A stretch of 64,000 nucleotides of DNA from an uncultured Dehalococcoidia bacterium (GTDB taxonomy: Bacteria; Chloroflexota; Dehalococcoidia; Lucifugimonadales; CAJWUJ01): the NCBI GenBank assembly GCA_913047625.1, contig CAJWUJ010000003.1, positions 1-64,000 on the forward strand, read 5' to 3'. Position 1 is the first letter of the stretch, and each line of letters opens with the position of its first letter. Position numbers and translations under genes: made by a program. A model generated the notes under the pieces. The model worked only from the letters and a program-made list of their open reading frames with translations, did not search any database and was not told the DNA's origin. Below, piece by piece: positions 45,586 through 49,138 of the stretch.

Positions 45586-46491
45586 TTACTTGATCAATGT
45601 GCTTGCAGCCTTACTTTGATAAACAATGTCAACACCAACCATCTCACTCCATGCACCAATTAGCTGGTTAGTGATTGTTCCTGGGGTTTTGTCTCCTATC
45701 TTTCTACTGTCAACTCTTGATATTGGTAAAACCGAGAAGCTGGTTGCTGTTATAAATGCCTCATCCGCAGTGTAAACATCGTATAGTTGAATATCTTCCT
45801 CGCTAACCGCGATACCTTCATTTATTGCAAGTGACATGGCTGTTTTTCTAGTAACTCCTTCGAGGATGTTCGATCTTTTAGGTGTTTTGATTATTCCGTC
45901 TTTGACGATCCAGAAGTTGAAAGTAGTTCCTTCAGATACATTACCGTTTTGATCCAGCAGGACAGGCCAGGCAGTAGGGTCAGCCAAAGCTACCTCGTGT
46001 TCTGCCAAAGCGAAATTCATTCTACTAAGGTGTTTAATTTTAGGGTCGAGTGCGTTTGGGCTGTAGGATCTGTTCCTCGCAAAAATAGCGTGTCCTCCGT
46101 TTTCGTACATTCCCGAGAACCTTTCAAAGTTTACATAATCTGCTCCAAAGTAAACCAATGGTGCGGAATCGCCGAGAACGGAGGATCCTCTTGTAACATA
46201 CTGTCGAAGGGCAAAGTCACTGCCTTCTTTCCACATGTGTTCATTTCTTGTGACAGATTCTAGGCAAAGCTCTGCCATTTGGTCTCGGCTTAAGCCAGCA
46301 TCAATCTTAACGTACTGAAGAGATTTATATAGCCTGTCTACATGGCCCTCCAAATCAAAAATCTTCCTTTGGAACGTCCTCTCTGCCTCATATACAGCAT
46401 CTCCAAGCGTGAAACCCCTATCTGCAAGGTCTACGGTACATTTGCTGCGGGGAATCCACTCCCCATTAAAATATGCGTTAAATTCACTCAT
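45586..46491 (-). CDS. Class IV aminotransferase (branched-chain/D-amino-acid type)
   Basis: PLP-dependent fold type IV aminotransferase of 301 residues. GFTLGDAVYEAERTF, the catalytic Lys in IKHLSRMNFALAEHE, and NVSEGTTFNFWIV with ILEGVTRKTAM match the class. Specificity between branched-chain amino acids, D-amino acids and 4-amino-4-deoxychorismate lyase cannot be decided by motif. GGGAAACAATT precedes the ATG. It is downstream of the HpcH-like aldolase with 37 bp between, so the two may share a transcript. Confidence 0.9.
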   Translation of the reverse strand: MSEFNAYFNGEWIPRSKCTVDLADRGFTLGDAVYEAERTFQRKIFDLEGHVDRLYKSLQYVKIDAGLSRDQMAELCLESVTRNEHMWKEGSDFALRQYVTRGSSVLGDSAPLVYFGADYVNFERFSGMYENGGHAIFARNRSYSPNALDPKIKHLSRMNFALAEHEVALADPTAWPVLLDQNGNVSEGTTFNFWIVKDGIIKTPKRSNILEGVTRKTAMSLAINEGIAVSEEDIQLYDVYTADEAFITATSFSVLPISRVDSRKIGDKTPGTITNQLIGAWSEMVGVDIVYQSKAASTLIK

Positions 46492-46528: not shown

Positions 46529-47311
46529 TCACCCAAACTTCTGGGCTTCGTAATCTCTAAACGGCTTGAGGTAATTTCGGGTCGCTCCTCCTAGAAGACC
46601 TGGTGTGTTAGTACAAAGGTATTGAAAACCCCTGTCTCTCCAATAGGAATATTCTTCTATGTCCCTACCCAGTGTCCCTGCGATTTTTCCTGCTTTTTGG
46701 ACCACATCTCCCGCTTCTTCAATCCTTTTCAAGACATCAGGATGGCGAGTTTGACCGTGTATGCCAAACGAGGATGAGAGGTCACCAGGGCCCATGAAGA
46801 CTATGTCCACTCCCTCGACCCCAGAAATTTCTTCTATGTTTTCCAGTGCTAGTACCGTCTCCACTTGAACGATTACGATAATCTGTTTATTGGCGGTTTC
46901 CACATACTGATCCATTGGCTCAGCTAGACCGTATGAAGCTGCCCTAGAGCCTGCTAATCCTCTTTTCCCCTTGGGTGGATATCTGGCTGCATCAACGACC
47001 TTCTTGGCATCTTCCCCGGTATCTACCAAAGGAATCTGTATACCCATAGTTCCTGCGTCCAAGAACTTCTGGATTACCTGTTGGCTATTTTCTCCTATAC
47101 GGGTTATTGGAACTATCCCTGTCAATTCAGCCGCGCGATACATATTTTCTGCATCCAAGGGCAAAATAGGCGAATGTTCAGAGTCAACTATTACGAAATC
47201 CATTCCTGCCAGACCAAGTATTTCAACAACAGATGGGGAGGGGATACTACAGAAAGCCCCTGCGACTCCTCGTCCTTCTTGCAATTTTTTCAAGAGTGAA
47301 TTTTCTCTCAT
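46529..47311 (-). CDS. HpcH/HpaI family aldolase
   Basis: Class II aldolase of 260 residues that cleaves or forms 2-oxo-4-hydroxy acids. Motifs FVIVDSEHSPI, IVQVETVLALENI (metal-binding Glu), FMGPGDLSSSFG (metal-binding Asp) and the IPLVDTGEDA loop are intact. AGGAGACACAT precedes the ATG. It is divergent from the three-gene ThDP decarboxylase set, and both act on 2-oxoacid chemistry, so a linked pathway is plausible. Confidence 0.9.
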   Translation of the reverse strand: MRENSLLKKLQEGRGVAGAFCSIPSPSVVEILGLAGMDFVIVDSEHSPILPLDAENMYRAAELTGIVPITRIGENSQQVIQKFLDAGTMGIQIPLVDTGEDAKKVVDAARYPPKGKRGLAGSRAASYGLAEPMDQYVETANKQIIVIVQVETVLALENIEEISGVEGVDIVFMGPGDLSSSFGIHGQTRHPDVLKRIEEAGDVVQKAGKIAGTLGRDIEEYSYWRDRGFQYLCTNTPGLLGGATRNYLKPFRDYEAQKFG

Positions 47312-47487: not shown

Positions 47488-47991
47488 ATGTCAGATAATG
47501 CAGCCGGTCTTGATCCAAGATCAATACTCAAAGAATTTAAGAAAAATAAGATCTCTCATCTGGTGTGGTTGCCAGATAGCGAGACGAACTTTATGTACCA
47601 AGTGATGACTTCTGATAAAGACCTCACCGTGGTTCCTGTTTGTAGAGAGGCAGAAACAATAGCAATAGCCGCTGGCCTTCAGCTAGGAGGGAAGCGCACT
47701 GTCGTTTTGGTTCAAAATACTGGTATTTTTGAATCCGGGGACTCTATTAGGGGTATTGCCTTGGATCTAAACTTGCCTCTTTTATTGCTGATAGGGTATC
47801 GGGGCTGGGTCAGACACGGAATAACAAAAGACTCTGCTGCATTTTATACTGAGCATTTCCTGCATTCATGGGGTATTGATTACTATCTTATCGAATCAGA
47901 CTCAGATGCCCATCTTATTTCTCACGCTCTATCGTCAGCAGAGGCTAATTCAAAGCCAGTAGCTGTATTGCTTGGCAGGGAGTATTCGTAA
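47488..47991 (+). CDS. Sulfopyruvate/phosphonopyruvate decarboxylase alpha-like subunit (PYR domain)
   Basis: A stand-alone PYR domain of a ThDP-dependent 2-oxoacid decarboxylase, like ComD. The 167 residues contain ISHLVWLPDSETNF, VPVCREAETIAIAAGLQLGGKR with the Glu that activates ThDP, and VVLVQNTGIFESGDS. ATG 47488 is preferred to an in-frame ATG at 47446 that adds a hydrophobic 14-residue extension. It is directly followed by the PP-domain subunit, 2 bp later. The true substrate is unknown. Confidence 0.85.
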   Translation: MSDNAAGLDPRSILKEFKKNKISHLVWLPDSETNFMYQVMTSDKDLTVVPVCREAETIAIAAGLQLGGKRTVVLVQNTGIFESGDSIRGIALDLNLPLLLLIGYRGWVRHGITKDSAAFYTEHFLHSWGIDYYLIESDSDAHLISHALSSAEANSKPVAVLLGREYS

Positions 47992-47993
47992 CA

Positions 47994-48569
47994 TTGATTA
48001 ACCCACTAGAAGCACTAAAAGTCATCGAGTCACACAGGGGGTCCTCTGTGGTGGTACCGACTATGCAGTCCAACAGGCGTTGGTCTTTAGTTTCGTCTAG
48101 GCCTGACTTGGATTTGCCTCTTACGGGTTGTATGGGCAAGGCCTCTTCAATGGCTCTTGGTCTAGCACTCGCTCAACCAAAAACCAGGGTTATTGTGATT
48201 GACGGAGACGGAAGTCTCCTCATGAACCTAGGCACTTTTGTCACGATTGGGGAGCAAGCTCCCGCCAATCTCATACATGTCTCATTTGATAATGGCGTAT
48301 ATGCTACTACTGGCGGTCAGCCAGTACCTGGCTCACACAGGGTTGATTTTGCTGCATATGCAAAAAGCTCAGGTTATCGATCCAGCCATCAATTTGAACA
48401 CCTTGAGGACTTTATCTCTTCGATTGAGGACTTATTTAGTGCGGAAGGCCCTGTTTTTATTAATTTAAAGATCCAAGAGGATCTTGATGATCTGTCAGCT
48501 GATGAGCGCATGGCTATGCCCAGCCTTGTTAAAAACTACCCAGCTATGAAAGATTTGTTCGCCTCTTAA
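47994..48569 (+). CDS. Sulfopyruvate/phosphonopyruvate decarboxylase beta-like subunit (PP domain)
   Basis: A stand-alone ThDP-binding PP domain of 191 residues, the partner of the preceding alpha subunit. The cofactor motif IDGDGSLLMNLGT begins at Asp70, with FDNGVYATTGGQP about 30 residues on as the expected end of the motif. LTGCMGKASSMALGLALA precedes it. The start is TTG at 47994. It is followed 2 bp later by a related gene that has lost this motif. Confidence 0.88.
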   Translation: MINPLEALKVIESHRGSSVVVPTMQSNRRWSLVSSRPDLDLPLTGCMGKASSMALGLALAQPKTRVIVIDGDGSLLMNLGTFVTIGEQAPANLIHVSFDNGVYATTGGQPVPGSHRVDFAAYAKSSGYRSSHQFEHLEDFISSIEDLFSAEGPVFINLKIQEDLDDLSADERMAMPSLVKNYPAMKDLFAS

Positions 48570-48571
48570 AG

Positions 48572-49138
48572 ATGAGCCCGCTACACCTTGCTCAAGCCAT
48601 TGACTTAATTCATTCCCATAGCGGTAACGCTGTGATTGTATGCTCTGGGCACCCTTTAGCCTTTTGGCTTGATCAACAAGGCCAGACGCCTGGTATGCTA
48701 CCGGTAGTTGACTGTGAAAACGATACATTGCCTTTGGCACTTGGAATTGCTCTTAGTAGCCCTCGGCTTAAAGTCATCGTGCTACAGTCCAACGAATCAA
48801 TGAAGGCTAGCCTATCTTCTCTTGCAACCGTAAGCCACAGTTTTCCCACAAACCTTTTTCACTTTGTTTGTAATGTAGTTTCTGAGGTTCCCTCTCCGGC
48901 ATTTGATTTTGTCGCCGCTGCCCAAGCCGCAGGATATGCGGAGTCTCGTCAATTTGGAGATGTGGAGTTGTTTGCCTCGGAGATATCATCGTTCTTGGCT
49001 TCTGGTGGCCCAAAGTTTGCGTGTTTAAATACGGTTACCCCCATATTTAAGCACCAGCTTCCTTATTTCCTGTTCCGAGATTCATTTTCCTTGGTCAAGG
49101 AGGAGATTTCGGCTCTTACTCAGAATGCTCACCCATGA
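48572..49138 (+). CDS. Degenerate paralogue of the ThDP-decarboxylase beta subunit (cofactor motif lost)
   Basis: The 188 residues align end to end with the preceding beta subunit: SPLHLAQAIDLIHSHSGNAVIV against NPLEALKVIESHRGSSVVV, LPLALGIALSSPRLKVIVL against MALGLALAQPKTRVIVI, and FDFVAAAQAAGYAESRQF against VDFAAYAKSSGYRSSHQF. Where beta has DGDGS (residues 70-74) this protein has QSNES (72-76), and DNGVY is CNVVS, so ThDP-Mg binding is not expected. The reading frame is intact and starts 2 bp after the beta stop. It is probably a structural or regulatory third chain. The 3' end overlaps the convergent MOSC gene by 23 bp. Confidence 0.75.
   Translation: MSPLHLAQAIDLIHSHSGNAVIVCSGHPLAFWLDQQGQTPGMLPVVDCENDTLPLALGIALSSPRLKVIVLQSNESMKASLSSLATVSHSFPTNLFHFVCNVVSEVPSPAFDFVAAAQAAGYAESRQFGDVELFASEISSFLASGGPKFACLNTVTPIFKHQLPYFLFRDSFSLVKEEISALTQNAHP

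Follow-up and report, generated by a model that had tools for sequence, protein, structure and literature searches.

A conserved paralogue of the PP chain lacking the Mg-ThDP motif is encoded next to a split ThDP decarboxylase in Dehalococcoidia of the order Lucifugimonadales

Gene content of the locus

The DNA analyzed here (the window) is a stretch of 64,000 nucleotides from an uncultured Dehalococcoidia bacterium of the order Lucifugimonadales. It contains three adjoining genes, referred to below as alpha, beta, and beta' (Table 1), all of which are intact open reading frames separated by 2 bp between alpha and beta and again between beta and beta'. The intact third gene with its 2-bp gap, reported in the preliminary description of this locus, is thus borne out by the coordinates.

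Table 1. Genes and sequence motifs of the alpha-beta-beta' locus (positions in the window)
Feature	Position	Strand	Remarks
alpha, PYR-domain chain of a split ThDP decarboxylase (ComD/RhiE-like)	47488..47991	+	167 aa; longest ORF from 47446
Glu codon in the REAE motif of alpha	47653..47655	+	R-E-[GA]-E present throughout the aligned trio alphas
beta, PP-domain chain with intact catalytic motifs	47994..48569	+	TTG start; 191 aa
DGDGS, Mg-ThDP motif of beta	48201..48215	+	DGDGS in 38/38 trio-operon betas
DNGVY, second half of the Mg-ThDP motif of beta	48288..48302	+	Asn in 38/38 trio-operon betas
beta', predicted PP-fold paralogue of beta without the Mg-ThDP motif	48572..49138	+	ATG start; 188 aa
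Asp47-Cys48 of beta'	48710..48715	+	Asp and Cys in 38/38 relatives' beta'; beta has Gly-Ala/Cys
QSNES of beta', opposite DGDGS of beta	48785..48799	+	Alignment of beta with beta'

The alpha chain matches TIGR03845 (sulfopyruvate decarboxylase alpha; E 1.2e-24), and the beta chain matches PF02775 (E 1.1e-20), TIGR03846 (E 5.4e-33), and TIGR03297 (E 1.2e-37). The scores against the three TIGR models are all below the curated cutoffs (87 versus 148 bits, 114 versus 221.5 bits, and 129.7 versus 312.5 bits, respectively), and by this measure the pair would not be assigned strictly to the sulfopyruvate or phosphonopyruvate decarboxylases. The adjoining PYR and PP chains, the GDG...N motif in beta, and the Glu residue in the PYR chain point to a two-chain ThDP decarboxylase of the ComDE/RhiEF type. 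This Glu, located in the REAE motif of the window alpha (REGE in most relatives), presumably represents the catalytic Glu expected in the PYR domains of ThDP enzymes. By analogy with the ComDE/RhiEF family, the substrate is likely to be some 2-oxoacid.

A gene for an HpcH/HpaI aldolase (46529-47311, minus strand) is transcribed divergently from alpha and is followed by one for a class IV aminotransferase (45586-46491); these neighbors could possibly provide a 2-oxoacid context for the decarboxylase in the window. The 3' end of beta' overlaps by 23 bp the end of a convergent gene encoding a MOSC domain (49116-49138). The same genome carries one other, distant alpha-beta pair at ∼21.5 to 22.5 kb of contig C2 (21563-22529; locus L013), which shows 26% (alpha) and 40% (beta) identity to the window pair and retains DGDGS in its beta; no third gene was found at this pair.

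The third gene and its predicted fold

The beta' protein is 31% identical to beta over 154 aa (BLASTP, E 3e-17), in agreement with the homology originally proposed for the two; chance similarity is ruled out by this E value combined with the fold match described below. The replacement of DGDGS by QSNES has also held up. The preliminary description further assumed that DNGVY had been replaced by CNVVS, but the alignments instead place DNGVY in or beside a 5-residue deletion (HFVCN-----VVSEV), so that the second motif was lost via deletion and “CNVVS” reflects a choice of alignment. Judged by the GDG...N motif, the combination of QSNES and this deletion would exclude the window beta' from the catalytic PP chains. 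Pfam names no family for this protein above the cutoff.

AlphaFold2 modeling of the window beta' aligned with three PP chains yielded a structure with pLDDT of 72 and pTM of 0.74; the sequence alone gave a poor model (pLDDT 39.6). The best Foldseek matches to the aligned model were RhiF chains 9iz3_B (1.1e-7) and 9iz4_B, with other ThDP PP domains also among the matches, and the comparison with RhiF gave Z of 19.4 and rmsd of 3.0 for 169 residues. A fold unlike that of the PP domain would have spoken against the preliminary description; the model resembles PP domains instead, and, as it needs the alignment with ordinary PP chains, the match counts as support rather than as independent proof. 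The beta' protein thus probably folds as a PP domain.

The beta' subfamily in the order

Since the window genome was the sole representative of its family in the comparison, the entire order was searched for relatives. The operons encoding the alpha chains nearest to that of the window (60 to 67% identity) mostly contain a pair of PP genes, of which the second lacks GDG (hereafter, trio operons). A beta' profile built from these second, GDG-less PP genes detected beta' in 53 of the 247 genomes of the order, with scores of 269 to 331 bits (profile HMM; the next best match scored 213). These carriers include 46 of the ∼50 genomes of one large family and seven genomes of three other families; the gene is single-copy in each genome and is nearly always found downstream of alpha-beta. 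The third gene, whose absence or disruption in relatives had been named as an argument against its significance, is present and in frame in all these genomes.

Among 393 sampled genomes of the class and 400 of the phylum, no match above 200 bits was found outside the order, the only such match coming from a genome of the order itself; as the window copy is too divergent for the profile, equally fast-evolving copies elsewhere would have escaped detection. The Asp-Cys type of signature (see below) was not found among the inspected top matches from outside the order, nearly all of which have DGDGS. A scan of genome contigs returned just two ordinary alphaproteobacterial alpha-beta pairs.

Several other features were noted in the relatives. 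In many of them, genes for a DtxR/FeoA-type metal-dependent repressor and an ABC transporter ATPase are located 3' of beta' on the opposite strand (L201-L220; e.g., L213:6951-8946, minus strand), in some cases followed by those for a solute-binding protein and a permease. A second unusual type of beta, found in simple alpha-beta pairs, has SEG in place of GDG (DSEGS, DSEGD, or DSEGC) and keeps the Asn motif (L128:3581-4171, L130:3606-4187, L230, L231, L233, and L234); some genomes of one family carry two such operons. In family f18, there are alpha-beta-beta''-beta arrays whose middle PP genes have DTDGG and a different loop (L132:4318-4995 and L133:4473-5114) and are a separate degenerate PP lineage.

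The former cofactor site

None of the 38 beta' proteins analyzed from the relatives contains GDG, whereas DGDGS is found in all 38 beta chains of the same loci; in 32 of the 38, the corresponding segment reads DCDAT or DCDST. Five residues are the same in every one of these beta' proteins: Asp in place of Gly45, Cys46, Asp72, Arg76, and Asp in place of the Mg-coordinating Asn100. GDG...N being the metal-ThDP motif of ThDP enzymes, beta' must be unable to use ThDP-Mg in the usual way. The former cofactor site is more conserved than the remainder of the protein (permutation p 0.013, 38 loci).

This pattern could potentially indicate that the rebuilt site accommodates a new ligand or a new chemistry, which would explain why it is not drifting and why, across a diverse set, Thr106 and Gly108 are invariant along with the five signature residues. 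We consider this improbable, as the charged residues may just close the site, and the window copy, with Asn for Asp72 and the region of residue 100 deleted, still has an open frame.

Phylogeny and selection

In a tree of 102 sequences, the 39 beta' proteins, including that of the window, form a single clade (support 100/100) that joins the window copy with beta' from four other families; the clade is also recovered with a reduced set (96/98). All trio-operon betas except that of the window comprise a parallel clade of 38 (100/99), with the window beta falling outside. The two longest branches, those of the window beta' and the distant beta from contig C2, do not group together. Both its position in the tree and its place after beta thus match the window gene to the beta' subfamily of the order.

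Alternatively, the window gene could have originated by a separate, lineage-specific duplication of beta and not be an orthologue of the relatives' beta'. The AU test does not reject a tree that unites beta and beta' of the window (p 0.135), and the subfamily HMM scores of the window copy are nearly tied (81.4 versus 79.4 bits), so that its assignment comes from the tree, which separates the two subfamilies, and not from the HMM scores. However, the alternative tree is 9.4 log units worse, and the placement within the beta' clade, apart from the other longest branch, is accompanied by the same location after beta, by Asp47-Cys48 in common with the relatives, and by a basic amino acid at the position of Arg76, which makes a separate duplication very improbable.

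For 14 pairs of relatives, dN/dS values are 0.03 to 0.21 for beta', close to those for alpha (0.02 to 0.11) and beta (0.03 to 0.18). The earlier suggestion that selection keeps the third gene therefore holds for the relatives, in which these values were obtained. The beta' proteins are an old, motif-less PP subfamily that is under purifying selection in the relatives. For this subfamily, the possibility of a recent pseudogene is ruled out by dN/dS and conservation.

A small membrane protein encoded with beta'

In the relatives, beta and beta' are separated by an ORF of ∼60 to 90 residues, here called TM, in which two hydrophobic segments and the conserved pattern GF[WY]...G...R are recognizable (e.g., L111:4246-4455, plus strand, and L096:3569-3757, minus strand). 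It is present at all 53 beta' loci of the relatives, and its dN/dS is 0.03 to 0.19, leaving out the pairwise values with G211 and G212, which had been computed out of frame. There is no Pfam family for TM, which appears to represent a new, undescribed family of two-helix membrane proteins. TM was not found in the window genome, where the gap between beta and beta' is just 2 bp.

The gene order alpha-beta-TM-beta' is seen at 49 of the 53 loci, and one further locus is cut by a contig end. In the remaining three genomes (G217, G219, and G222), TM-beta' comes after the gene that immediately precedes alpha in sister genomes, alpha and beta being gone except for a beta remnant of 76 residues in G219. 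Since G217 and G219 group together and G222 apart, alpha-beta has likely been lost at least twice. The beta' proteins of all three still carry all the signature residues. Elsewhere in their genomes, G217 and G219 have two nearer alpha-beta pairs with DSEG for DGDG, and G222 (87% complete) has only a distant pair. The retention of TM-beta' in these genomes indicates that it is separable from alpha-beta and may act partly alone, and that an obligate alpha-beta-beta' assembly does not by itself account for all of the loci.

These observations would also fit a model in which TM and beta' form a separate membrane module, be it a sensor, a scaffold, or a carrier, and are merely co-encoded with the decarboxylase, beta' remaining outside the enzyme; the presence of TM at every beta' locus examined, and of TM-beta' with a full signature after the in-place loss of alpha-beta, is what such a module would predict. 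We regard it as unlikely: beta and TM-beta' occur together at 50 of the 53 loci, 49 of which also have alpha, the trees of beta and beta' run parallel, and the window shows the reverse of the prediction, with alpha, beta, and beta' tightly packed and TM missing.

State of beta' in the window

No other member of the subfamily has diverged nearly as far as the window beta', which has an end branch of 6.6 changes per column and an unusual composition. It keeps the Asp and Cys of the signature (D45 C46 D72 R76 D100) and has lost most of the rest, with Lys at position 76, Asn for Asp72, and residue 100 deleted. The statement that the gene is not decaying agrees with its open frame and its gene-like base composition by codon position, as well as with the purifying selection in the relatives, but has to be weighed against this extreme divergence. 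In the window lineage, beta' might be a relic on its way to being lost, whatever its role in the relatives: it has the longest branch of the tree and has parted with both most of the signature and its TM partner. Such a fate appears improbable, given that all 188 codons are still open and gene-like despite the very large divergence and that the tight coupling to beta persists.

Possible role of beta'

There is good support for beta' being a conserved PP paralogue without the motif. Our tentative choice among its possible roles, which we would put just short of an even chance, is that of an accessory subunit in a ComDE/RhiEF-type decarboxylase, with a PP fold, no catalytic activity, and, in most cases, a link to the membrane; gene order and fold suggest that beta' would join the alpha-beta complex and that TM would be its anchor. 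The retained PP-fold surfaces of beta' could pair with alpha and/or beta in an assembly such as alpha2-beta-beta', in which some half-sites would be catalytic alpha/beta interfaces with ThDP and the others closed, cofactor-free alpha/beta' interfaces. The fixed Asp45, Asp72, Arg76, and Asp100 might form a network of charges inside the protein that fills the old cofactor site. Most relatives would have the complex, or just beta', held at the inner membrane by the TM hairpin. The window lineage lacks TM, its genes are 2 bp apart, and its beta' has drifted furthest, although Asp47 and Cys48 are still there and the position of Arg76 is still basic.

Against an accessory subunit stands the occurrence of TM-beta' in three genomes whose locus has no intact alpha or beta, which makes a separate function of TM-beta' possible. 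Further points against it are that the window has no TM, that its beta lies outside the clade of trio betas, and that its beta' signature is mostly lost. The preliminary view of the locus thus stands in part, as regards a conserved, motif-less third gene of probable PP fold; the alternation of active and regulatory chains to which it compared the locus would be one conceivable arrangement. It could not have foreseen the fourth gene, TM, in the relatives, and the persistence of TM-beta' after alpha-beta had gone also changes the picture it gave. A more elaborate version would be an asymmetric ThDP decarboxylase encoded by four genes and tethered to the membrane. Here a conserved pseudo-PP chain, its cofactor pocket rebuilt with Asp-Cys, Asp, Arg, and Asp, would share the PYR chain with the catalytic PP chain, TM-beta' could also work without alpha-beta, and the window would have a soluble minimal version. 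This version strikes us as doubtful.

If true, a cofactor-less PP chain inside a split ThDP decarboxylase would constitute a natural experiment on why the sites of such enzymes are paired and symmetric and, should beta' be part of the enzyme, on how one half of an enzyme turns into a regulator. The relatives offer a clean, testable four-gene operon, together with what may be a new small-membrane-protein family, in hosts seemingly known mainly from metagenomes.

Comparison with known systems

No report of a third chain of this kind was found in the open-access literature. NAD-isocitrate dehydrogenase is a heteromer of catalytic and non-catalytic homologues that have a different fold. TlxIJ and AibH1H2, again with other folds, are also heteromers of this type (PMC12141560). 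In all three, the non-catalytic chain supports the active one; their folds are unrelated to that of beta', whose likeness to them would lie in the way the chains work together.

Two-subunit (split) ThDP decarboxylases have been called rare (PMC12746152), and the split form has been proposed to be ancestral to the ThDP decarboxylase family (PMC12141560). LumK/LumL from riboflavin catabolism is, similarly to the window enzyme, a two-subunit ThDP decarboxylase, but it acts on a heterocycle and has no reported third chain (PMC12746152). The ComDE sulfopyruvate decarboxylase (TIGR03845/TIGR03846) shares with the window the split into alpha and beta and belongs to the same family by HMM; it has two chains only, and the window alpha and beta score below its curated cutoffs. 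In the RhiEF phosphonopyruvate decarboxylase (PDB 9IZ3/9IZ4; PMC12141560), two chains are all there is, and neither a motif-less PP chain nor a small membrane protein has been described, unlike in the window and its relatives; nevertheless, its PYR and PP domains reside, as in the window, on separate chains of ∼170 to 190 aa, and the window beta' model has one of its best structural matches in the RhiEF PP chain.
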